64,000 bases of DNA from Siniperca chuatsi (Eukaryota > Chordata > Actinopteri > Centrarchiformes > Sinipercidae): assembly GCF_020085105.1 (NCBI RefSeq), contig NC_058043.1:6205667-6269666 (forward strand), read 5' to 3'. Below are positions 1,501 to 63,645 of the stretch, piece after piece (the stretch's first letter is position 1; each line of letters starts with the position of its first letter). Below the pieces are notes generated by a model. The model made no database searches, was not told the DNA's origin, and saw nothing but the letters and a program-made list of their open reading frames with translations. The position numbers and the translations under genes are program-made.

Positions 1501-2729
1501 CTGCAGCTGTTTTTTACTCTGTTCTATTCATTCATAAAGTAAAAGGAATTAACAATAACAGTTTTGACCTTCAACACTGACACTTTTCCTAATGATAGTT
1601 ACTTTATACAGAGACAAACTGTATAAAAAGAAGACAGTAGTGCCTATAGGATTAGTGGATTTACAGAAAAATTATGATGCCAACATTAAGTGGTTCCAGC
1701 TTCTAAAATGTGATTTGCTGCTTTTTTCCCCTGTTTTTCCTCATGTTTTGATTTTGTAGCTTCTTGATTTATCACACAACAGTGAGGATAAGCAGGGTGA
1801 GTTTAAGATTTTGCCTTTAGTGTACCCAAAAATGACAACTTTGTTTTCAAGTTATTTGTGACATTAAAATGGTGCAGATGAAGAAGACAGGTCTTATGAA
1901 TCAGGGCACATAACAAAATAGGACCCTGTATTTGAAACAAATCTGAGCCAAATGTCCAATAACAAAATAGATGTTCCCACAAAATAAAATGTACAATTTT
2001 TTTTACTGGATCTTTGTGTTTAAAATCTGAGAAAATATCCCTAACAGACAACACATATTGGTTTTAGAATAACACATTTATTATGACATACATCCTAACC
2101 TTCACGGTTGCAGAGTGGAAACAGAAAACAACAGCCGGGGTCATGACCTGAAAGGCTCCAGGTATGGAAAGTTCCTTGACATGGTAAAGAAGGACCAAGT
2201 ATTTGTTGGATTTTGTTCATTCAGGTTCACACTGCACAATTACAGGCAGAGTTTGCACACAGAAGTCTCACAGGTAGCTTGTCAACTGGACAGGGTTTCG
2301 GTAAGCTGTCTTCAAGCAGGATAGATATTTTTGCAGAGGGCGGAACATAAATCCAGAATCCATCCAGACTTTATTTTGTTCTGCTTTTTTCCCCAACTTT
2401 CCTAGCATGAGGAACAGCATCTGTGCCTTTCTACCCATAATCCCTTGAGTTTTGGGAACATTTCCTGTGCTCAACTGGGATTATGTATTACAGTGTTGGA
2501 TATGTCCACAGGAGGCAACACTCCAGAGTTTGATGTTTCCCTCCAAACATGCTTGATGTGCTTGCCTGCTGGAGAATTTTGGACAAGGTGTCTCAACTAT
2601 TCAATTATGACTTTTCAACAAAAAGTGTGCGAAGAATTGCACCAAATTCATCTTAAATCCTGGAGGAAAGTCGATCCTGAAGGGAAAATACAGTAATAAA
2701 ATAAGCCTGTCATTATCATCTTCTCTTAC

Positions 2730-2927
2730 CTTGCCGGTCTTGTGGTCAAACCAGACCAGGGCATGATTCCTGGACAGCACCTTGCAGTCGAAGGTGGCAT
2801 TGTTTTGTGCCGGGCGACACCGAGCCACAGACCTGCCGATCTTGACTGGCTCATCCAGGTATACATGCCGCTCCTGGAATGGGTGCGAGTTGGGTCGGCA
2901 GGCGAACACGGCCAGCGCTGAAGGCAT
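2730..2927 (-). CDS. slmap: SLMAP first coding exon (FHA domain start), partial gene
   Basis: Encodes residues 1-66 of sarcolemmal membrane-associated protein, a tail-anchored coiled-coil protein that docks the STRIPAK phosphatase complex through its N-terminal FHA domain. The peptide starts [20 protein letters not shown] and contains the FHA signature GRS...[10 protein letters not shown], where Arg and the S-R-N-H loop bind phosphothreonine. It ends ...HKTGK at a strong donor (AAG|GTAAGAG, intron from 2729). As I recall, the human first coding exon also has 66 codons and ends at the same residue. I chose the ATG at 2927-2925 because the family's conserved N-terminus begins exactly there; the open frame continues upstream without an ATG. 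The rest of the gene lies off the left edge. Its promoter faces dennd6a about 6 kb away. Confidence 0.95.
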
Positions 2928-4101
2928 TGATTTTGGCTTGAGAGTACTACTCCAACCAGAGACGAGGGACAGGTTTTCTTGATCCAGAGTGGCGGGCTTC
3001 TGTTGCAACTCCCCAATGAATAATCTACAATATCTGTGGCCTATATGTAGGCAGAACTGTTAGTCCTCTAAGCTTCTAGGCACTAACTAATAAACATTGT
3101 CCACTGTACACAGCCCGGGCTGCACCGCTTTCCCACTTCGATTCAACAAGACTCTCCTGTGTTTGAAAAAAATAAAAAACAAACCAACAGGTATAAAAAA
3201 GACAACACATTCCCTTCACTGACTGTCCACCAAAGCTACATAACGACACTTACATCTGACAGCAGGCACTATGTACAGACCAGGGTGCCATGTGTCAAGA
3301 CATACATGACTGAGTATAGCTCTGACAGTCTGGCAAACAGCCTCCCACGTCCATCAAACTATTCCAGCACTGAAGCAGGTGAGGGAAGCCAGTCAGCCAC
3401 CACAGACTTGATCTTTAATCTCCCAAGATAGCAACAGCTCACGCCAATAATTGTGACTACTGATCGAATGAGCTACCAATCCAGGAAACTATCTAATGTG
3501 TATGGGGAGCAGTTAATAAAAATATTGCGCGCTTTCTAGTTGTGTCAAGTCTTGTCTTGCGGTAAGATATCAAGGGGCACACACCCCAATGTGCAACACG
3601 CCAGTCGGTTTACACACGTTTGGCGTTTAGTAATGTGTCATCTGTAATTTATTAATTTACAGCCTGTCATAATCTGAGTGACATTTTTACACTGATACAG
3701 GGAACCTTAGCTAGCTACCTAACGTCACCACTCCCTCCAGAGAACACCTATAAGACCGCTAACGATACCTAGCAAGACTTAACGCCAAAAACAACCCTGA
3801 GTTGTAAAACATTCACGGTCCAATTATGGTTCGCCAACTAAAGCAGTCGCCACTCTTCGTCTGAATTAGTTAGTACAGAGGCTTCAAAACACTCAGCCGG
3901 GATGAACGGGGGATTAGCAGGTCTTCTTGTGCAACTAAAATGCTAATTGGCTAGCTCGCTAGAGGACAGGCAAAGCGCTAACTCTCGGCCAACGTTTTCT
4001 GGCGTTGTACCAGCAAGCTAGGCTAGGCTAATGAGTGCTGACAAACTTATCACCCAGGTCCTCAAATGTTTTCTCCCCACCCCTCTCAACCAGTTCGCTT
4101 A
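2928..4101 (-). other. slmap: slmap 5' UTR / probable 5' UTR intron
   Basis: There is no other coding frame here. On the minus strand a good donor (ATTCG|GTAAGC, intron from 4102) and a weak acceptor (CAACAG|AAG, exon from 2999) would define an intron in the 5' UTR, so that the start codon sits in the second exon. This is inference from motifs only. Confidence 0.45.
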
Positions 4102-10090: not shown

Positions 10091-10331
10091 TGTGCGGTTT
10101 ACGGAGCCCTATGGACTTAAATACAACTCAGTGCCAGGGACGGCTTTACGTGATGGCGTCACCACGTCGTGCGTAAGCTTCTGCTCCTATGCTAAGTGCT
10201 AGCTAAGCGGCTACTTTCTGTAGCGCTGCCTGCCTTCTGTTGTTTGAGGGACGCTAACTAGAAATTTTAGTGAACTTATTTAGGAAACCGTTAACAGTCT
10301 CCAGAGCGCGCCTGAGTGTCGGGCCGTCGCC
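10080..10331 (+). promoter_or_regulatory. dennd6a: dennd6a promoter and 5' UTR
   Basis: A local CpG-rich segment ahead of the start codon. It includes TTACGTGATGGCGTCACC near 10146-10163, which combines a TACGTGA half and a GCGTCA half typical of CREB/ATF or bHLH-ZIP sites. The start codon context (GTCGCCATGG) is close to the vertebrate optimum. No TATA box is seen. The exact start site cannot be read from sequence. Confidence 0.5.
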
Positions 10332-13300
10332 ATGGCTCTGCAAGGCCCGGAGGAGTTGGGGGAGCAAGTCGAAGAGCCGGAGGATCTGGACGACCAGGAC
10401 GCTAGTAGCATCTCCCCGGCCGAGGAGATAACTCTGCCCCCCGGGCCCGGAGGCGACGAGGAGCCGGAGGAGGCTCTCCTACTGCCCTGGGACCGCTTCT
10501 CCGCCTGGCTGCACTGCATCTGTGTGGTCGGCTTCGACCTGGAGCTTGGACAGGCGGTGGAGGTGAGTCAGAAGGGGACAGCTGGGCCATGTAAAACTCC
10601 TACACATTGTAGCTAAAAATGCTTAAGTTAGCAGTTATCGAAGGCTCAGACTATTTCCTGGACTGGAGCACACAAACCTCTCCATGAAGCTGTGTGTTTG
10701 GCTCTTTGTTTAGTTATTCTTTAGTCTAACAGTGCTGACATTTTTACACACTAATGCAACTAAAAACAGCAGAGTAGTTTTTACTATAGGATAACAGTTT
10801 CATTAGCTGATATTGTTTATCGTAGCCAAGGTGAATTGTGTGTGTTTTTTCTTCCCAAGAGTTAGTCTGGTCCAGCAGCATCAGCTCAGCTCCTATTTCA
10901 CATGGATGCATCTTTGCTGAAACTCTTCCTCAGACAGAGACACACACATTGAACTTTATCAGCGTTAAACCCGGGGAGTTGAGCAAGGCATCTCTGACAT
11001 GGAGGGTTTGAATCCCACTGTTAGTCCCCAAGGCTAACAGCACAAACACCTGTTGTTCTCACAGGAGTTTGGGATACATAATCAATAAGCTGACAACAAG
11101 TTTTGAATACAATACACTGCATGTGTTAATAAGGTTTTATACAGTGATCTGGGTTCATACTCCTGCAGCTCTTTCTATTTCACTTTCTGTAATGAACTGA
11201 ACAAGACAGACTGCAGAACTTGCTTTTATTTTTTTATTAGAGCAGTTTGTCATTTTGACCTACTGATTGGCTAAAGTATTTTTGGAAATGAATTGGCTGC
11301 AGGCAGATAATTTTATCTTTAGTAAAATACCATCACAATTCCCAGAGGCCAATTACCAGTTTACACAATTATAATCTGATTGAAAGAAAACTGATTAATC
11401 TTATCATTGCACTGCAAATCTAATTCAGATATTAGTATCTAATCAGTACTTCACAGTTTTTGATACTCTGTGCTATGGACATATTTCAGTCAATACCTTG
11501 CCGTAGATATTATATTAGGTCACACTTTATTTGGATAGTTTGCCTACAGATAGTTTATAGAGTATTTGTAACATTTCAACAACTTATTAGTTGAGATTCA
11601 ACAATTCAACTGTTTCACAAATAAAACTGTTTTTCTAGGTTTGGTTTAGGCACAAAAAACATCTGTTATGTACATGAATTGTCACATATACTCTTTTCTC
11701 TTTTGATAATCTGTCAAACATCTACAGACAATGCGAAACAGTTGAAATGTTACAAATACTCTATAATAATAATAATATTATCTGTGGGTGGACTATCCAA
11801 ATGAAGTGTTACTTTATATAATCAAGTTATTTATTTAATGCTAACCCTATTTAATGCTAGGGTAAAGGGTAGGCTGCCCCTGTACAGTACATTAATCACT
11901 TAAAATCACTTTATATCACAAATTTCCTTCCTTTTAAACTTGTTATACTGAAAAATAAATGTAAAATTTGTTTTGGCCAATTCAGGAACCAGTTTTAAAT
12001 AAATACCTTATCACAAAATTAAAAATGGGTGTATTGTAATACAGTGACCACTAACTCGAACAAAATCAAGTGCAGCAAAATGGCAGATAGCATTTACAGA
12101 AAGTAATGGATCCAGTGACATTAGAGACAAATAAATGTTGGTAAAGATGTCCAAGTTTGAAAAATCTGTGATGAAAAAGTGCTGATATTTTGTTTTTAAC
12201 AACCGGTAACCGTGTTCATCTGTCTTCCAGGTTATTTATCCTCATCATTCCAAACTGTCAGAGAAAGAGGTGAGTCAGACTGACGGGGTGGGATTTTGAA
12301 TAAAAGAATTAATTTTTACGTTATGTAACATCCTTTTTGTAAATAAAGTCATCACATGTACATTAAATTCTAGAAGATCCTAGAAGTGGGGTAGGGTTTG
12401 ATAGATTTTGTAATATTTTTGTTCATCATAACGATAATCATTGATCTCTTGCTGTTTGCTGTCTGTTGTGTCATTTGTGTTGGGTGTATGAATCACTGAC
12501 TCAAACTGAGATGACACTTGATGTAGATCCTTTTTCTTTCAGAAAACAAGCATCTGCTACCTTTCCTTTCCTGACTCCAACTCAGGTGAGTTCCTGTTTC
12601 GGCCTTTTAAAGTTTTGTGTGACGTCTCTGAACGCAGCAGAACACCACAGTGGAGACTTTCGCCTTTTTATGGTGATGTGTCAGATTAAGGGCCGGGTTA
12701 TGTTAGAAAAGAACTAGTTCCTACGACGTGTTGTCCGACCACATGGGAAGGCAAAAGTGTTTATAGCTCAGAACAGCCACACTTGAAGGCAGAGTTAAAA
12801 GTTGGCTGTCACAGAGCAGAGGGAGGTGTGATAATCATTTAAATACGAGGATAATGGTGCAAATTATCAAACAGTCTCTCCTGGAAGACATTCATAGTGT
12901 GGGACTTAGTTGTGCACATCGAAAGTGACAGTAGTAGTTGTGTAAGGAATGAAAAAAGAGGGCTTGAAAGGGAAGTTCAAACCCTGCTTACTTTCTCACC
13001 TCCGCTCAGCTGGCCAATTGCTGCATGAGGTGCGTGTGAATGTTGGATTGTTGGTTTTGGAAAGGGAATGTATTAGAAACACCTCACAGTATAACACAAC
13101 ACAGTTAAACACCACCACAAACTACAGCCTCCAAAATTACCATGAAGTTGAATCAACACCTCTCTGAAACAGTTTAATAAAAAACTGATCATTATAACCA
13201 AATATAGGTAGGATTTATTGCAGGTCTGTAGTATTCAAAGCTTCAAATGAACTAGTTTGTATGATGTGTCATCTGAACACATCTGAAAGCAAAAGTGTTT

Positions 13301-32632: not shown

Positions 32633-34753
32633 GGTGTAATTAGTCCCGCCTCCACACACCTACATTGAGTTACTGTGAATAAATTAAAAGTACAAACTGT
32701 CAGAGCTGAAAACGGATACAGTCAGAAAAAGTCCTGCAACAATGGCTAAACAATCAGACACGTTTTAACCAGTGTGCTTTTAGGAGTGCTTAGTAAACTG
32801 TATGGTGGCTTGTGTGCATCTGAGAAAATGGGGAAAAATCAACACTACAGGTAGCATCGTTTTAACTGATATTCAACAGATGGAGCAGCTTTTTGATTTG
32901 GGTTAAAACGATGCAGGTAAAATGAAAGCAGAACCAAAGATTTGATAAGTTAGTCTCATTCTGAATGAATGAAGACTCGTTCCTGTAAAGATAATAAGAG
33001 CAATGCTTATTTAACTGCAGCTCGAGGCTTTGTTCTTACACTAAACTAAATTTACTCTGCTGAAGAGTAAGACTCTGACAAAAATTGGCCTCTGATCACC
33101 ATCCTGCTCAGGATCAGTGTTGCCTTCAGACAAAAAATATTGCTGATGTCTGTTTCAAGTGTTTTCTGATGAACAAGCAAACTACACAGATGCATTGTAA
33201 AAAATAAAAACCAACACGAAGTCCTGTAAAATACAAGAAACTACCGACAAACTCTCACTTCTAACAAAGGGATAATTAGCACTGGTGGGTCTATCAAAGC
33301 ATCATTTCACTGCATGTTTTGGCCCATTAACTACAAATTGTGTTTAATTTGCATAAATCCACTTCAGACTAAACTAAACATTTCAGTTTCAGTGAACTTT
33401 GAGCTAAGTTGTCAAAATCAAATCCTCAACAAAACAAAATTAAACATGGACATCGAGAAAAGAATAATGTGAAATTTATTGTAATCTGTTCTTGCAGCCG
33501 GCTAAAATTTTGAAGTTAAAGGGCCAAAACATGCGAAATCATCTGTCTTTGAAATTACAATTTTTCAACTCAAAGCTTCTTTAGGTCTGATTTATTTGAA
33601 TTCAGGAACATTTCTGGACACCTAACAACAATGTAAAAATTAACAAAACCATATATAATGACAGCAATAACAGCTTAACAGGTCATTTAATTGGTTATAG
33701 TAATTTGTATTTTCAGAGTGTAAATTACTATTACTGTCACTTATTAGCAGAAGATTTGTATTTTCTGAAAGTGTAGATAGTGTTACACATAATTGCACAT
33801 ACAGTTATTTTATGTTTGCATTTTTCAAAATATCAGTTAAAAATGTTAAATGAACCTGTTGTCAAACTTTTGGATTGTCTTTTTGTTTTTGTTTTTTGTC
33901 ATTTTCCTTTGAGCATCATGTAACACTTTGAAATTTGCCTTTTTTTGTCAAGCAGATAATTGTAAAGAAAAATAACAAATGTATGCTGGTTGGAAAAACC
34001 TGTGACATCTGGTTGTTGGGCAACCATGTAAATTTTATATTTGTAAAAAAAAAAAAAAAACAACAACCACCTTATTTTAACAACTTTGAATTTTTATGGA
34101 GGGCTATTCCACTCTGTAGAGAAAGAAGAGTTTTGTACATAATGCTGTAAAGTGAAATAGTCGCCCAGATATGACGTACAATAATTATTTTGCTATTACA
34201 ACAGATGTCTTACTAAATACAGAGATATAAATAAGAATCGCTCCATAAATGTGTTCATTTACCTTTCTTTGAATAATTACAATGTTGTTGAGACACCTTG
34301 ACGTTTTGAATTTGTAGTTTGTTTGTTAACAGACACTGTGGGAATGGAAAGTTTTAGTATTTCTCTTAGCGAGGTGTTTTCAGGATCAGTTAACATTGTC
34401 ACCATTATGTCACATCACTGGTTAACCACTGAGTAACTATTTTGCTAATGTCCAGCTATTTATTGGTGTCAATGACCATATGTTCTTATAAAAATGTGAT
34501 TTATAATGTAATTAAAAGAACCTAATACCAGAAAACATTGATATGGACAATTAACCAAAACCCTAGATTACATTCAAATAATGTTTTTAAAATATGTTTT
34601 TACAACTTTATCAATCATCTAACTATGGTATGGTTAAGGTTTAAAAAAAAAAAAAAAAAGATATTGTTTATGGCAAATAGCCTACGGTTTAAGGTATAGT
34701 TTAGGTTAACATAACTGTAGGTCTGCAAGAGGACACAAAATATATTTTTGTGA

Positions 34754-37756: not shown

Positions 37757-38807
37757 TTAAAGCTGTTCTGTCTTTCTCTCGTCCCTTTCCCCCACGTTGA
37801 TAAACTCCCACATCTTCTTCTCTCCCTTTGGTCGATGCCCTCTGCGCTTGCTGCTGATTGGCTGTCTTGCATGCCATTCATAGGCGTCCTCCAATAGTGT
37901 GTTTCCTCTGGGAGAGTAGTTGATGGAGGACCAGGTGAGGACGGAGCCACAGTACGGCCTAAAAGCACAATTATATTTTCAAATAACAAATAATACAAGT
38001 CCATAAGTTTATAAATACTACAATAATAATAATAATAATAATTTATATATGAAAGGACATTTAAAGAAATTTTTAAAATAACATTGTTTTATAGCGTCAT
38101 GGAGAAAGCTCACATATTCCAAAACTGGGTTTTGGGGACTTCAGAATAAAAAACCAAACAAAAACTCTATGACTGTTGTCTGTGTGTGTGTTTTTGTTTA
38201 CAGGCTGATTCCAGCATGTCTAGACTAGACCTGATATAGGTGCCTATTGGATACCTTACTTTGGGGAATTTAAACATATTTTGACCAGACGCATTTTATT
38301 TATAAATTATAGAATCATTTCTGTCTGATATGGCTTTTTCACAAAAATAAGTTAAGTTAAAAATTCTTAAAATTGCATCTACTCTTTTTCCCTCCTTGAC
38401 AAATTCAGAGTCTATGAATGTGCAATTTTTTTTCAGCTATTTCAGCCTCACAATGTCTCCATACTGCTCAAGGCATCAGTTTTAAATAAAAAGCTTTTCC
38501 TCAATGAAATAAAGTCCACAACTGAATAAAATTCAGAAATATCTCCCATTCCCCTGAACTACCCACCAGCAAATGTCAGGCTTAATATTAGCTGCATTAG
38601 CTAGCAAGCTAAAGTTTTGTGACTTTATGCAGGAATGAAACATAGTGTAGATTAAATGCTTTTAAGATTTTACTGTTACTTTACTTTTTGTACTGTTTGT
38701 AGACGTGGATACTTGTTGTCTGTGTACATTTTAGTAATGTTGGGTAGATATACTTTTATTTTTTATTTTTTCAACCCGACTATAGATTACTAAAAAAAAA
38801 ACTGATC

Positions 38808-38838
<31 letters not shown>

Positions 38839-41800
38839 TACAGGTAGAAACCGCTGGTCATGTAGTTGAAGATTTCTTTGTAGCGGAGAGGATAATCCCA
38901 CACCTGGACGTCTGTCACCTGACCATCAAAACCTGAAAAATCAATCACAGGCTCACCTGACCAGACATACTGAACACACATACACACAAACATGGACACA
39001 AACAGCAGATAAATAATATTAGAGACAATGATGAAGATTAAAAATGATTACATACAAAATCCAACAGGTTGTTAAACTGTTTGTAGTCAAATAGTCAAAG
39101 TGTTAAAGTCCTTTTCAGACATGAATAGGAAACACTGCAGGCTTCATCTGTCTGTTAAAGTGATGGCTTTTTGTCATTCAGACATACAGTAGCTGTCTGT
39201 TAATGTTCCTTTGGGCTTTATTCAGACGTGACAGGATAGTTAGGGAAAAAAGCCAAGTGTTTGTGCAATATTATTACTGTAGTTGTTGTTTTTATCTCTT
39301 TTGAGGAGGAAAAAAAAAATCCCAGACTGATCTGATGCGAGCAGAATCTCCTCAGCATCTTCAAATGGGCTCATTCAAAGTGATTTATGGTTTTTTAAAC
39401 TGATTATCTTTTACTGAGACCTTAATAAGACGAGGATACCCGGTTAAATAGAGTGCAGGCTGCATGTGAGGCAGCAGGTGTAATGATGAATCTCTATCAG
39501 CTGATAATCAAACAGCAGCAGGTGGTAGAGATGCTGTGATAAACTTGAATCTTTTTACAGCTTGCGAGTGTTGGCAAAGACACTACAGAACCTTTTCTGT
39601 TTGGATTCAGCCATGACAAGCTGTGTGAAAAATGTTTTCTGGCATTTTGTTTACATGTCACACATTGCCGTCGATTCAGGTCAGCATAAGCAGTATGTCG
39701 TTTTGAGAGTCAAACTCAAATGGAGTGAAAACCATTACCGGTTGTAGCCTACACCTAAGTGGAGCAGACATATACGGTGCCCCAGAAGGATCACACATAG
39801 AAAAAATACGTATATTGAGGCCACGAAATGTATTGCGTGCCCACGAGATACAATTCGGTGGCACGTTTTAATAAACTCGTGGCCACGAGATACGTGTATA
39901 TAGTGAGAACTGCTTAAAGGGCTTAACCAGCCGATGTGCAAAGACAGATCTCTCTCCATAGCCTTCATGACGGGAGGAAAAGGCTGCAGCCAGGGTTTAA
40001 AGTGTAATATTTAATGTTATCTGTGCTGTCATTCTCTTGTTCCCCTTACTTTAAGCCCCACAGCAAAGCAAGTACACATTTTGACTGTAAAAAATCTACT
40101 AACGGGCCGCTTGTGTTAACTTTCCTCCCCGACAGCAGCAGCTGTAGAGATGTCGACTCTCAGCTCAGGTGTCTGCTGTCGGCTGTCTGGAAGTGGAGGA
40201 AAGTTAATATAGAAAAGGGTCCGATGAGGATGTGCTTCCTCTCCACACCCCAGTGCTGAAAAGGGACAGATGACATCATTATGAATAATAATAAGCCACA
40301 TGCTTCTGAGAGCATGGCTTATTATTATTCAGAATGACATCATTAAACCATCATTTTCTGTGTTAACCTCCCTCTATCTGTAAACCATAAACAACTGTTT
40401 ATCTTCTAACACCTTTCCAAGCCTCCCATTCAGGGCTACTTATGTTTTATATCCATAATAATATCATCATAATATCACCTTTGTTCATGTGCAATGATAT
40501 TCTTGGTTTTGTGTGATACAGCAGATGATGACCATGCACCTTGAAACAGAGCACTGTGTCCTAGAGGCTTGCTTGGTGAAGATAAGCCGAAGTTTGGATT
40601 CATCAAGCAAGCCTTGGGGGTGACGTTGCGAAGTCTAGACAAAAAGCCAGTGTTTGTGCTCTTAGTTTCAATGTGACACACAGAACAAGGCCGGCCACTC
40701 CGTGACATCTAAAAAGATAATCAGAAGATCAAGAGGTGTGCGTTCAGGATGTGCTGTAATTGGTGCGTGAGGATACAACCCTCTATGACAAGATATACAA
40801 ATACTGAACTGTATGTGATTTCAGTCGCTTTGCAAATCGATTCAGGCCTTTATGCTTTTCAATGCTTTATGCTTTTCAATAAAGGTCTTGAAATGACTTT
40901 GCCTCCAAACTTTTGATTTCAACCACAAAGCAGTTCTCACTATATACACGTATCTCGTGGCCACAAGTTAATTAAAAAGTGGGAACGAACTGTATCTCGT
41001 GGGCACGCAATAGCATTTCGTGGCCTCAATATACATATTTTTTCTACCTATGATCCTTCTGGGGCTCCGTAGAAATGATAGCCTACGTATGCAAACAGGT
41101 GATTCAGGGCGTGTCTTTCCATTCGTGGCCGACTGTAGGAGTGGAAATCAGGCTCATGCACATGTGCTCGGCTCCACAATTATTGAGATTTATAAAACAG
41201 AAACATACAGATGCACAACTTTATAAATCCGACGAAACAAATGCGTATGTATATTTCTGATATTTTTGTGTTTGTGCCTACACAGAGTTTTAGCAGAAAT
41301 TCAGACCGAAAAGATTCCTGCGTTAAAAAAACGCAGGGGCTGCGCATGTTGTTTGCATGCACCGGTGAGACGTGAAATCTGATCCAGGAAATCCAATTGG
41401 AGCAACAGATTAATGCGTTTAAAGGTTTATCAGACGCCAAAACACTGCACAACGTAAACAGCAAATACAGTGTTTACCTTAAAAAGTAATATACCAGGAA
41501 TGTGCGCTTGCATGTAGGCTATTGGATTGGCCAACGCAGCGCCTTGTTGGATGGCGTTGCGCTGTGTTGCAGTAAAAGTTGACCCTGTTTTGTTGGAGCA
41601 CCAAGCTTGGCGCCCCTGCTGCGCCAACGCACTGCGTTTTTTCACGCAGGGCTACTGCCGCTCTGAACGAGGCCAGACATCTGGTCGAGAGACTGCAAAT
41701 CTACAAAAATGTGTTGCCTGATTCCAGACCTCAGAACTGCTGTCCACATCTCCATTTTTTTCCAGCTATTCAAATGAAATTCAGCCTGATTATCAGGGTA

Positions 41801-44663
41801 CAAAAATGCTAAACAAGTCAAATTTGCTTCAGTATGTGCTACTCTGTCCTCACCTGAACATTGGCAGGCAGCATCTTCCTGATGCTAATGCTCGAGTCGC
41901 GAAACACCTGGGCCACATTCTTCACGGTGTCCACGGTGAGGCAGACTCTGTTCCAGATGTCCGGTCCAATGTTTGACCAGAACCTTATGTCAGGATGCAA
42001 ATCCAGGTTGTAGTAACTGTAGCTCCCAAAGTACAGTGTATACCAACCAACGTTATTGGCTCCCAGCTTCAGAGGGGTGCTGGATGGACTGAGTGTGAAG
42101 ATTGAGTTGCTGCTTGTTTGTTGATCGATCAGGTAACGCAGACACACGGACACACCTGCAGGGGTCAGTGTTCACATGGGGAGTGTTGATTGAAAGTTAA
42201 GTAAAAAACAAACACATGAACAACTGTTTGGTTGTTTTAGTGCATGAATTAAAAAATACTTAACAAACTAAAGTACACAATATATAGTGCAGACAACTGG
42301 CCTGTGCAATGACAATCCACCAAAGACAGTGGTTCACATCTTCTTTCATGCTTCAAGTTAGCATTGACTTGACTTGACATTATTTAACCTTAAACAAGTG
42401 CTTTATTTGTCTTAACATAACCATAAAAGCCTTAATCATGATTTAGTTGCTAGTAGCAGATATTGTAGGGGAAACAAGTAAAAATATTTTGGTAAATATT
42501 TTGCAGATATGTTAAATCTAAACATTTTACAGTGACAGTGAACATTTGCTAACTGTGCACTACCTGCCCAGTGCAGAAGCTAATCCAAGCTAACTGTATG
42601 TTGTCTGCCAAACATGAAACAGCAGAAAGCCAAGGTAAATGAACTGATGAAGTTAACACGTTTCTGGATATGTACTGGGTACAGGCCTAGGGGCCCAAAA
42701 AAGCTACAGTAACTACAAAGAAACACAAAACAACCACAAAAAGATGCATAACCACAAAACAACCACATATACCACTATACTACCACAAAAACATGCAAGT
42801 TAACAATAAAGAGACACAAAATGTCTACAAACGACGTGAGTGAGTGAGCAGACTTTTGAATTTTGTTTTGTTTTTTGGCCATATTTCACAACCCAAGATT
42901 TTACAGGCTTTTTTGCTCTCAAGGACAGAATTAATGGATTTTCTCTGGGAAAAATGCAAAGACCCGCCATAATACTGAACCAGAATAAACTGATAGTATA
43001 ATAAAGTGACGTTACATATAGTTTACTAACACAAAAAAAGTGGATTTTGTGTTAAATTACTCTTTTAGTCTTTCTGCCCCCTGGTGGTCAGAAATCACTT
43101 AATGCAGCTTTAATCTGCAAAACATAATGAAGATCATGATTCCAGCCTTTTGACAGGAGATTTCACAAACAAGCACAAAACCGATTAATGTGGTAACAAT
43201 GTGCTGGATTCTGTTCCTGTTCGGCCTCTTTCCCACTCAAGAATCAAAATTGTATCATCTAACAGCATTACCTCTTAACAGGAAAAAAATACCAGAGAGA
43301 ACACGAGAGCAGATCCGTAGATTAAAATAACATTTTGGATTTCACATCCTGAAACTGTGTTTCTGTTTGGTTATGTAGTTTGTGAATGTACTCACCTCTA
43401 GTAGGATGTGGTGTGGTCGTGTGAGGGGTGGTGGTGGTCCTTTTCGGGGTGGTGGTCCAGGGAGCATAGGTGGTGGTGGTCCTGCGACGGCTGGTGGTGG
43501 TCGTGTGAGGGGTGGTGGTGGTCCTGTGACGTCTGGTGGTGGTGGTCCAGGGAGCGTAGGTGGTGGTGGTCCTGCGACGGCTGGTGGTGGTCGTGTGAGG
43601 GGTGGTGGTGGTCCAGGAAGGGTAGGTGGTGGTGGTCCTGTGACGGCTGGTGGTGGTGGTCCAGGGAGCGTAGGTGGTGGTGTAGGATCGGGAAGTCCAG
43701 GAGGGACTGGAAGGAGAAAAATTGGGGGGAAAGAAGGATATTTCTCCTCTATTAAGAGACAAAGTGAACATCTTCCCGTTTAAATTTAGTCCATAAGGTC
43801 CTGGAGAAAGAAAGAGGAAGAGATATCACAAAAACAAAGTTGTCAGCATAATACAAAATCTTCTGTTTACTCATGCATCCTATGAACGTTTGTTTTCTTA
43901 TGTGCTTATTTTTAAACGTGTGATTCTCACATTTATACTATACAATACTGTATATATACTGTGTTAATTAAAGTTGATTGCCTCGTAACATCATTTAAGG
44001 AGACATTTGGTGATATAGTCTGTCTCTCAATGCTTTCTGACTTCCCTACTGTGTGTCTGTGGCACTCAGCCATAAGTCCATTAGTTCCTACTGAAGATGT
44101 AAATGTTTAAAAACGGCTCACAAATATATAGTTTACTTTTTAAAAAAAGTCTCAGTAATTTCCTAAAACAGATGGTCACTGTGGTTTTTAGCAAGCAGGA
44201 GGAAATAGTGCAATTGTTGGGGACTATTTTCAGCAGCGGATTAATCCACATTTGGTGCTCTAGTGAGTATTTGGGGGCAGCAGGACGGTGTGTGTGGGAT
44301 CGAGTCCAAATAGTGTGTGTGTGTTCATAGTGATGAAGGAACATGTCACCCAGTGCACCACTGTGGCTCGATGTGTTTTTAATAGTTTTTGGACAACAAT
44401 GGAGCTCTGTGGCACAGAGGAATAAGATATATCAGGCTTTGGATACACAGATAATATTTGTAAATAGATCAATTCATGGTTGGTTTTGGTCTTTTAATGA
44501 GATTTGTTAAATACAGAAAACATTAGTCATTAATTATTAGGGTTTGATAATCTATCCTGAAGTGTAACTAAATTACACCAAATCACTGATAAACTAAAGA
44601 TAGACATATTTCATACTTACATCTTAAACAGACATTTATACCATTTTTGTTTACTCATTTCAA

Positions 44664-44699
<36 letters not shown>

Positions 44700-45468
44700 T
44701 GTGTGTGTGTGCCTGTGTGAATTTCAGGAAGTAGGACTTGGAGATTTTTGCTGGCTATGTCCCAATTCCATACCACATACTAAGATTACACAGTTTGCAC
44801 AGTATACTAGTTTTCATACTGTACCTTTTTCTGCAGTTAGTATCTAACTGAAAAACACAACTATCGTCCACACACATTAGTTAAATTGCGACTTTGAAAT
44901 GCAGCCAAACAAACTTCATAAAGTGAAAAAAACATGGTTTTCCAAAGATTTTATTTGTTTTGTTATCCGCTATCCACAAATAGTTATACTTTTTTTTTTG
45001 CATTTGCATTGTGCTTTGCATTGGTCTCCATCAACAGCAGACCACAAAAATCCTTTTTTTAGTGTTTTTCTAATGTGAACACAAGACATAATAAAGTTAT
45101 TTAACTAACATACTCAAAACCTGCTTGGAGTCAGTGTGAACCGGGAGACAGCTTCGGTCTCACCAAGACAAAAAAACTTTGACACCTGACCTGATTATAT
45201 TTTACTCGTGACATGTTGCACAGTGTGAGTTCCTCTGCATAAAAGTGTCTGCTAAATGGATAAAATGTGAATTATGTGTGATTTGGTTTTGTTTTTATAA
45301 CCTGCATTTAATCAGTAAGTCATTTGAAATATTTAAACATCTGTGTGTGTGCGCACCTGTTGTCCTCGTCCATGGTGTGGATTTGGTGGTCTTGAGTCCA
45401 GAATTTGTGACGACCAATGCTGACATCACTGCCATCACCATGGGAACATAAAGCAGCTTCATCTTCAT
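37757..45468 (-). CDS. Secreted pentraxin-domain protein with mucin-like Thr-rich block
   Basis: Minus-strand exons 45357-45468, 43396-43800, 41854-42155, 38842-38969 and 37757-37958 join in frame to 382 aa, with GT/AG at every junction. Residues 1-23 are a signal peptide (MKMKLLYVPMVMAVMSALVV). Residues 43-49 (NLNGKMF) match the first strand of fish C-reactive proteins (family motif LSGKMFTFP). About 66-172 is Thr-rich, O-glycosylation-type sequence. From 175 (SVCLRYL) the pentraxin fold resumes: WYTLYFGSYSYYNLDLH, WNRVCLTVD, FDGQVTDVQVWDYPLRY, GSVLTWSSINYSPRGNTLLE. Cys177 and Cys244 match the conserved disulfide. The calcium loop (QEQD in C-reactive protein) and the HxCxS/T signature are degenerate. 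A basic tail follows (KRRGHRPKGEKK). Expected role: extracellular, innate recognition or mucosal. An unseen extra exon in the 1.5-kb intron 1 cannot be excluded. Confidence 0.82.
38807..38832. repeat. (CA)n just inside the pentraxin exon 4 donor
   Basis: On the gene strand the intron begins GTATGTGTTTGTGTGTGTG, so the donor runs straight into the repeat. Confidence 0.95.
39773..41072. mobile_element. Non-autonomous DNA transposon with ~143-bp TIRs
   Basis: 39773-39915 is the near-perfect inverse of 40929-41072. Readable blocks are TACGGTGCCCCAGAAGGATC, ATTGAGGCCACGAAATG, GTGCCCACGAGATAC and GTGGCCACGAGATACGTGTA. The interior of about 1 kb has no recognisable transposase. It sits in intron 3 of the pentraxin gene. 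Confidence 0.85.
40270..40347. mobile_element. Small palindromic insertion flanked by ~12-bp direct repeats
   Basis: ATGACATCATTA occurs on both sides of a palindrome of about 50 bp (arms AATAATAATAAGCC and GGCTTATTATTATT). It is nested inside the long-TIR transposon. Confidence 0.7.
43400..43684 (-). repeat. Coding minisatellite of the mucin-like block
   Basis: On the gene strand this encodes Thr runs of 3-4 separated by YAPW, SRRR, RRHR or PH. The full unit is about 30 residues (90 bp): S-R-R-R, T4, Y-A-P-W, T4, R-R-H-R, T4, P-H, T4. There is one complete unit, with shorter versions on each side. I count 50 Thr in about 96 residues. Confidence 0.9.
44031..44490 (+). repeat. Dispersed direct repeat, copy 1
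   Basis: About 450 bp highly similar to 49985-50436, from TTCCTACTGAAGA through GGGGACTATTTTCAGC and ATATCAGGCTTTGGATACAC to TTGGTTTTGG. It lies in intron 1 of the pentraxin gene. No coding frame; the family is not recognised. Confidence 0.85.
44666..44711. repeat. (GT)n microsatellite, interrupted
   Basis: About 22 GT units with one CT interruption, in pentraxin intron 1. Confidence 0.95.
45237..45268 (+). mobile_element. SINE 3' tail fragment
   Basis: TAAAAGTGTCTGCTAAATGG followed by ATAAAATG matches the 3' tail of very common fish SINEs. Only the tail is clear. A similar tail is at 56365-56402. Confidence 0.5.
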
Positions 45469-45640
45469 CCTCACCTGGCTGACCAGAGTCTCTACAGTGA
45501 AGCGTCTGCGTGTCCTCGCCGTGTGAAAGTGTTTATGTGTCTGTCGTCCCTCTGAACAGGCTGCACCTCAAGCTCGTATATTTTCATTTCCTGGTTCAGG
45601 CGTCAGCAGCCACTTTAAGTTTCATTTCTGTGCAGTGTGG
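45469..45640 (-). promoter_or_regulatory. Pentraxin gene promoter and 5' UTR
   Basis: On the minus strand an AATATACGAG stretch about 110 nt before the ATG is a weak TATA candidate, preceded by CCAGGAAATGAAA, an ETS/STAT-like motif. Neither is decisive. Confidence 0.3.
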
Positions 45641-51084: not shown

Positions 51085-54278
<3,194 letters not shown>

Positions 54279-61800: not shown

Positions 61801-63645
61801 AAATTAATTGTTATATTAATCAAGTAATGAAAAAATAATCTTTAGAACAAGAGATAAATTAGTAATTAGATTAATCGATAAAAAAAAATCGTTAGGTGCA
61901 GCCCTAATTATAACTGATCCGTCTGGTGTGTGTGGCTATTTTGTAGCAGTCTGATGTGATTTAATGAAGGTAAATGCAGTGAAAAGCTGTGCATAACGGC
62001 ACTGCGCTCTAACACATCTCCAATCAGAGGCTGCAGATTTATCAGCATGTCTGTCCTGCTGCCTTCAGACGGCTGCAGGGATTTAATGAACTGATCGAGA
62101 AACTTTTCATACAGTCTAAAGCAGCTGTGGACGACAGATCCTGTAAGAATCACCTGTTTTAATGTATGTATCAATGCAGGCAGACTTACTGACTGCTTTG
62201 ATCACATTGAAAGTAATTTATTTATGTAAATTTAAACGCATCTACTGGTTGGAGTGGTCTTTAACTTAAATTAGTTTATTTACGTTTTAAATCATCGAGT
62301 AATTGCTGCGCCTGTGCTTCCAAGTATTTAGTTTTCTTTTGTTGACAAAATCATCAGACTGGCAGCAGATTGACGATGAGCCAGAAGTATATTCTCAGCA
62401 TAATGTCTAAGACACATTTTCCACAATGACACACACACACACTCTCTCTCTCTCTCTCTCTGTGTGTTTCATACTTGAGGCAGTCACAGGTGACCAGCAG
62501 GTGTGATTCGGTCATCCTGAAGATGTTGTGGATGGCTCTGGCTGCCAGGATCTGCCTCATGGTCTCAGAGATGACCTCTGCTGACTCAGCAGTCCTCACC
62601 TCCATGGAGCCCAGGAAGCGAACGATGAAGAGCTGATGGAGGATGGAGTCTGGACAACAGACACGGGGGAGAAAATTAGAATTAGAAATTAGAAGGAGGC
62701 ACACTTGATAACTTACTTGGACATTTTCATTAAAGTTCCCCTCCAGACGTTTTAAAGTATGTAAAAATACTCTGCTATGATTAATATTTAAGTAAAACAA
62801 AAAAAAAAGACTCTGAAAAAGGGCTGGAAGCACATCTACTCCTTCTCCCTCATTGAGAAAGTCTGGATCTATGAACACCCCGCCCACCACCGCTGCATGT
62901 TAGGTTGACCGGTGAAAGAGCAGTGCGCATCAAGATGAAGATGTAGACTAGAAGATGTATCAGAATGGTAAGTGTAGTTAGCATCTATTATTTGTTTATG
63001 TTGTTTGTTAGCTTGCAACTGGCAGTGGCTGACACAGCGTTAGTGGTTGTGAAACATACAATAATATCTGCTACGATGTGTGTTCACATTGTTATTATGT
63101 AACGTTAGTAGATAGTGGAAGGAAGCTCCAGGGTTCAGTTTACATCCAAAAACTGCACACTCTGTCATGTTTGCTGTCAAAACTTTCACTACGCTAAGTT
63201 AGCTCAAACTCGGCTCTGTACTGACAAGTCCGCTCTGCGCTGGAGGTTTCAGGTTTCTTTGCTGATGGTGTTCTTTGTTGGTGGTCTTTCGAATTTGTGA
63301 CGTCCCAAATCTAGCTTGCTCTGGATTACGTTTGATTCTCAGATTTTAGGGAAGTGTACAGACATCTCCCCCCTTCAGTAGAGGAATGTGAAAACACCTT
63401 TCTAGCGACAAACTTTGCACAAATACAAGTCAGTAAAGACATTTTAGGGGACATAAACATAAGAAAAACACATTTTTGAGTGGAGGGTCCTTTAAACAAA
63501 AGAGTGACTAAATTGGAACCGGATGCATCACTGTAACAGAAACCATGAAAAAATGGTTTCAATAACATGAGGAAGACAAGAGCAGACGGTACCTTCGCTG
63601 TCTTCTGATGTGCTGTCTCCTGACTCTCCAAATGGATTACTTCTT
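58833..63645 (-). CDS. appl1: APPL1 C-terminal part (PTB domain to stop), partial gene
   Basis: Minus-strand exons 63593-63645, 62475-62649, 60945-60981, 60652-60792, 60516-60566, 60289-60378 and 58833-58985 join in frame to 232 aa plus stop. APPL1 is a BAR-PH-PTB adaptor on Rab5-positive early endosomes that binds AKT, adiponectin receptors and other cargo. Visible here are the pre-PTB linker (SNPFGESGDSTSEDSE) and the PTB domain (SILHQLFIVRFLGSMEV, ETMRQILAARAIHNIFRM, ESHLLVTCDCL, LIDPQTQVTRL, NKRLFGFVLQ, VCYIFESNNDGEK, DSIGLAKQIAFHSEM). A charged coiled coil (KEKQQEELSKQRQIEKDLEE) follows, then the acidic tail ending GKKKGESEA. All splice phases agree. The BAR and PH exons lie beyond the right edge. 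It converges on arf4. Confidence 0.95.
59353..59655 (+). mobile_element. AGGGCTGCAACTAAC-type MITE, forward copy in appl1 intron
   Basis: Starts GAGCTGCAACGATTAGTCGA and ends AACAATCGTTAGTTGCAACC; the ends are imperfect inverses. Confidence 0.7.
61195..61221. repeat. (GT)n microsatellite
   Basis: About 13 GT units followed by poly-T, in an appl1 intron. Confidence 0.95.
61361..61908. mobile_element. hAT-like non-autonomous element in appl1 intron
   Basis: The left part ACTGGCACAATTCATTGACG ... ATCGATTACG and right end ATTAATCGAT ... AATCGTTAGGTGCAGCCCTA have degenerate inverted similarity. It is about 550 bp and non-coding. The GTGCAGCCCTAA terminus is typical of fish hAT-derived elements. 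Confidence 0.55.
62430..62466. repeat. (CA)n-(CT)n tract near appl1 PTB exon donor
   Basis: Starts 8 nt inside the intron on the gene strand. Confidence 0.95.

Follow-up and report, generated by a model that had tools for sequence, protein, structure and literature searches.

Gene Structure and Genomic Surroundings

An apparently intact gene, encoding a diverged pentraxin-like protein, was found on the minus strand of the analysed window, a 64,000-nt stretch of the Siniperca chuatsi genome (contig NC_058043.1, positions 6,205,667 to 6,269,666). Its five exons join in frame into an 1149-nt coding sequence of 382 residues plus a stop codon (Table 1), and all four introns carry GT-AG boundaries, with junction phases of 1, 1, 0 and 2. 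The five exons of the original prediction were therefore right in strand, frame and coordinates, and the phases at their junctions match. We infer that the five-exon gene is transcribed. Residues 1-23 (45468-45400) are hydrophobic and, by eye, resemble a signal peptide; the 382-residue product is probably secreted.

Table 1. Features of the pentraxin-like gene (positions within the window).
Feature	Position	Strand	Basis
Exon 1: start codon, signal-peptide-like segment, start of the Thr-containing mature N-terminus	45357..45468	-	gene model
Exon 2: 405 nt, symmetric phase 1-1, flanks ctccag / gtgagt	43396..43800	-	gene model
Putative A and B strands of the pentraxin-like domain, PYGLNLNGKMFTLSLNRGEISFFPPNFSPSSP	43703..43800	-	modest similarity and spacing
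Thr-rich block, residues 71-172, with a tandem array inside	43397..43702	-	composition, repeat detection, alignment
Exon 3: central part of the pentraxin-like domain, with both conserved cysteines (177 and 244)	41854..42155	-	gene model and alignment
Exon 4: GQVTDVQVWD core; holds the shortened calcium loop region	38842..38969	-	gene model, Pfam, alignment
Exon 5: final strands, additional Cys 319 and the stop codon	37757..37958	-	gene model, Pfam, alignment
Charged C-terminal stretch, 44 residues, most of it beyond the CRP alignment	37760..37891	-	alignment
AATAAA polyadenylation-like hexamer, 3' of the stop codon	37700..37705	-	sequence

The end of exon 2 coincides with the single GT[AG][AG]G donor within 43830-43361, although this pattern misses weaker donors, and two of the four donors of the gene itself do not fit it. 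Immediately 5' of the exon 1 ATG lies a strong donor-like sequence, CAG/GTGAGG (45469-45477), which would in principle allow a leader exon to bypass that ATG. Intron 3 contains an element of ~1.3 kb (39773-41071), probably a non-autonomous DNA transposon, delimited by inverted repeats whose arms measure 58 and 85 nt and are 91-92% complementary.

The window also contains exon pieces that we take to belong to SLMAP-like (2601-3059, motif 2745-2777) and DENND6-like (10284-10616, motif 10488-10517) genes and to an APPL-like PTB domain (62354-62899, motif 62597-62617), together with plus-strand pieces at 52442-53577 that, judged by motifs, presumably encode an ARF-like GTPase. The SLMAP, DENND6 and APPL set resembles what we take to be the human 3p14 neighbourhood. 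Pfam matches for these neighbours, FHA (E = 0.033) and PID (E = 0.058), were both below cut-off. Across the whole window, no Rfam family matched at the gathering threshold and ARAGORN detected no tRNA gene.

Identity of the Pentraxin-like Domain

A Pfam search with the whole product returned Pentaxin (PF00354) as the sole family up to E = 1, with a match to residues 286-337 (E = 3.8e-4, 20.7 bits) that does not reach the curated cut-off of 25 bits and is confined to the last quarter, the C-terminal part, of the profile. Exon 3 alone had no match in Pfam. Against the PDB, the exon 3-5 product matched SAP and zebrafish CRP weakly, at E = 0.07-0.09 (best 0.073); with the block-free product, E-values were 0.02-0.08 for the same two proteins and 0.39 for neuronal pentraxin-2, all likewise weak.

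Global alignment of exon 3, with the reference segments trimmed by hand to the matching part, was equalled by none of 2000 shuffles for human CRP, none of 2000 for SAP and 23 of 2000 for zebrafish CRP. Local alignment was weak (96, 74 and 513 of 2000 shuffles as good, respectively). An AlphaFold prediction of exon 3 alone was uninformative, with a mean pLDDT of 36.

The product shares with CRP, SAP and zebrafish CRP (PDB 4pbo, 4pbp) a cysteine pair, a WD core and a similarly spaced Trp close to the C-terminus. Cys177 and Cys244 align with Cys36 and Cys97 of CRP, the pair conserved in pentraxins, and are 67 residues apart, compared with 61, 59 and 62 in the three references (5-8 more here). The sequence around the second cysteine, RVCLTVDT, does not match what we take to be the pentraxin signature, H-x-C-x-[ST]-W-x-[ST], its His and Trp being replaced. 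Since the protein fails both this signature and the Pfam cut-off, it was not assigned as a classical pentraxin, and the domain is read here as diverged pentraxin-like. The locus had originally been described as encoding a secreted, heavily O-glycosylated pentraxin. The sequence is best fitted by a pentraxin-like protein that is secreted and holds a Thr-rich block within its domain.

Threonine-rich Block

The 102 residues of the block include 51 Thr, 14 Arg, 10 Pro, 7 Ser and 6 His. Asp and Glu are absent, and with 15 Arg or Lys residues the net charge is +15. At the DNA level the block is a coding minisatellite with a period of ~90 bp, 2.9 copies and 87% matches (43409-43662), and the encoded sequence is tandemly repeated and rich in Ser, Thr and Pro, as defines a mucin-like (PTS) region. 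Almost the whole repeat region is open in every minus-strand frame and in two plus-strand frames. An open frame there is consequently weak evidence when taken alone, and the reading frame of the block is fixed by the flanking exons.

When repeat copies were compared with a shift of 30 codons, 37 codons were identical, 5 differed synonymously and 30 non-synonymously, a count made unreliable by gaps that spoil the register; for what such a count is worth, it gave no sign of purifying selection among the copies. The 382-residue product contains no N-glycosylation sequon, and the Thr-rich block is probably O-glycosylated, as judged from its composition. Judged by eye, the C-terminal tail has a basic sequence, KRRGHRPKGEKK, and the block has RRHR, either of which could be a protease site.

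Candidate N-terminal Strands and Probable Position of the Block

Exon 2 opens with the candidate N-terminal segment, which contains NLNGKMF and whose start is like the NLSGK of zebrafish CRP. The original prediction placed about 107 Thr-rich residues directly after NLNGKMF, taken as the first strand, where CRP was said to have about 30 residues. The block does appear to lie inside the domain, but GKMF is followed first by a further 21 residues that are not rich in Thr; in the alignment these fall on the second strand of CRP and SAP (GEISFFPPNFSP here over SYVSLKAPLTKP in CRP), making two N-terminal strands probable. Both lengths also need correction: 125 residues separate GKMF from SVCLR, a distance that exceeds the block itself, and in human CRP and SAP the corresponding distance is 24 residues.

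When the block is left out, the distance from Gly-Lys to the first conserved Cys is 29 residues, compared with 30, 30 and 30 in CRP, SAP and zebrafish CRP, a match that has some freedom because the limits of the block were drawn from its composition. This spacing supports the earlier proposal that the block loops out of the fold.

Similarity of the N-terminal segment to known pentraxins was assessed in a global test that was run after two weaker local tests. Shuffles as good numbered 576 of 3000 for CRP, 44 of 3000 for SAP and 17 of 3000 for zebrafish CRP, so that human CRP on its own is matched no better than by chance. With the three references added together, 11 of the 14209 overlapping pieces of 28 residues into which the window was cut scored as well. 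In the first local test, 2520 of 4740 window pieces and 3727 of 5000 shuffles were as good for CRP, and 159 of 4740 pieces and 270 of 5000 shuffles for SAP. The second yielded 167 of 7537 pieces and 234 of 5000 shuffles for the sum, and 58 of 7537 pieces for zebrafish CRP.

Profile searches gained nothing from the N-terminal segment: Pfam scores were 20.2 bits with the segment vs 20.6 without, and scores against a local three-sequence profile were 19.4 vs 19.8. Exon 2 alone did not match that local profile. A scan of 2861 reading-frame fragments of the window with the same profile, insensitive enough to miss exons 2 and 3 as well, found no conventional N-terminal exon. Exons 4 and 5 ranked at the top with weak E-values (0.28 and 0.66), and a plus-strand fragment at 34185-34298 came third, close behind (E = 1.2). 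A scan for the motif GKMFTFP, allowing up to two changes, identified exon 2 only.

We considered whether exon 2 might be an optional cassette, with exon 1 spliced in frame to exon 3 in the main product and the block confined to one splice form. The length of exon 2, 405 nt with phase 1 on both sides, would keep such a joint in frame, and exon 1 also ends in a Thr-rich sequence (TTKSTPWTRTT). However, the splice sites of exon 2 are good-looking by eye, and the 33 residues at its start are similar to the N-terminal strands required by a pentraxin sandwich. We regard this arrangement as unlikely.

An equally improbable alternative, in our estimate, is that the domain begins only at SVCLRYL and has a laminin-G/pentraxin-like fold that is truncated or remodelled, with the block and the residues before it forming a mucin-like stalk and NLNGKMF being a chance likeness. 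The flat Pfam and local profile scores and the chance-level match to human CRP are in keeping with this, as is a weak Laminin_G_3 match to residues 12-134 of the exon 3-5 product (E = 0.057). The global-test matches to SAP and zebrafish CRP and the near-canonical spacing argue against it.

Under the favoured arrangement, in which the block interrupts a pentraxin-like domain, two N-terminal strands are probably present. The block then most likely occupies the B-C loop, before the third strand, with real room for doubt.

Calcium Site and C-terminus

The calcium ligands of CRP, which we take to be D60, N61, E138, Q139, D140, E147 and Q150, are all missing from the aligned product (0 of 7): six fall in gaps and Q150 is replaced by Ser. 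In the same alignment, zebrafish CRP keeps three of the seven unchanged (D60, D140 and Q150), has Asp for Glu at two positions and Pro for Q139, and has a gap at N61. Its calcium-binding sequences are nevertheless described as highly conserved with human CRP in a published report (PMC6336239), and letter counts alone therefore do not prove loss.

The case here does not rest on letter counts alone, since the loop itself is missing. The second conserved Cys and the Trp-Asp pair are separated by 53 residues, vs 65, 65 and 65 in the references, i.e., 12 fewer. In the alignment this shortening falls within the contiguous exon 4, so a missed exon is not a ready explanation. As the alignment shows, the predicted pentraxin-like domain is without a calcium site. 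Given the loss of all seven ligands and the 12 missing residues, CRP-type phosphocholine binding is not expected. The ligand loss also counts against a CRP-like recognition role.

The third Cys and the C-terminal tail are extra relative to the references; these two features, the Thr-rich block and the ligand loss distinguish the protein from CRP and SAP. It is very unlikely that the locus is a decaying pentraxin paralogue without selected function, filling with repeats and a transposable element: the lost ligands, the minisatellite in exon 2, the inverted-repeat element in intron 3 and the unreliable codon count among repeat copies would suit decay, but all five exons are free of stops, frameshifts and broken splice sites, the cysteines are conserved and a poly(A)-like signal is present.

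Comparison with Known Systems

One of the closest known systems is ADGRG4 (GPR112), in which a pentraxin-like domain stands beside a mucin-like region and has a diverged B-face loop (PMC10687090). The two proteins have in common the combination of a pentraxin-like domain with a mucin-like region, the same conserved disulfide and a diverged B-face loop (PMC10687090). They differ in that the mucin-like region of ADGRG4, described there as a membrane receptor, follows the domain (PMC10687090), whereas here the block lies inside it and the five exons encode no receptor part recognised by Pfam.

Pentraxins occur in fish skin mucus, according to a study of lumpsucker and the common skate study that it cites (PMC5614610). 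By analogy, skin mucus would be a plausible site of action for a mucin-bearing pentraxin. The passages of the lumpsucker study that were considered mention no Thr-rich block in the mucus pentraxins (PMC5614610), which are likened to the present protein by description. Binding of cholesterol without calcium has been reported for zebrafish CRP1-7 (PMC6336239).

Relatives of the 210-residue exon 3-5 product were sought in non-fish collections, where a lack of matches carries no weight. There were no pattern matches in viral contigs, 38 pattern matches with none confirmed in genome contigs, and no match at E 0.1 in the phage collection. No fish pentraxin with an internal mucin-like block was found among the matches listed in the open-licence literature, searched by title and start of abstract. 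Judged from gene structure and this literature, the layout may be new; fish databases could already show it.

Proposed Model and Its Implications

The reading we favour, which we consider about equally liable to hold or to fail, is that of an apparently intact gene for a secreted pentraxin-like protein that carries a minisatellite-coded Thr-rich stretch in the loop between its second and third strands and has lost its calcium site. The minisatellite at the 3' end of exon 2 would then encode a long flexible stretch in that loop, around which, as the spacing suggests, the beta-sandwich would close. With a composition like this, the probably O-glycosylated block would project as a stiff cationic bristle. 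Such a protein would probably bind glycans, lipids or proteins independently of calcium, or serve as a structural component of mucus or matrix, instead of acting as a CRP-type phosphocholine sensor, and the block would provide reach, protection from proteases and retention in mucus.

More tentatively, and with doubt outweighing confidence, we propose a calcium-independent secreted pentraxin in which a minisatellite-coded, O-glycosylated cationic bristle inserted into the B-C loop leaves the fold unbroken and varies in length between individuals, tuning placement in mucus. The tandem array predicts differences in block length between individuals. If the favoured reading is right, it would show that a pentraxin fold can accommodate a mucin-like tandem repeat within an internal loop even as its calcium site is lost, and the protein would have shifted from a soluble sensor to a component of mucus or matrix.
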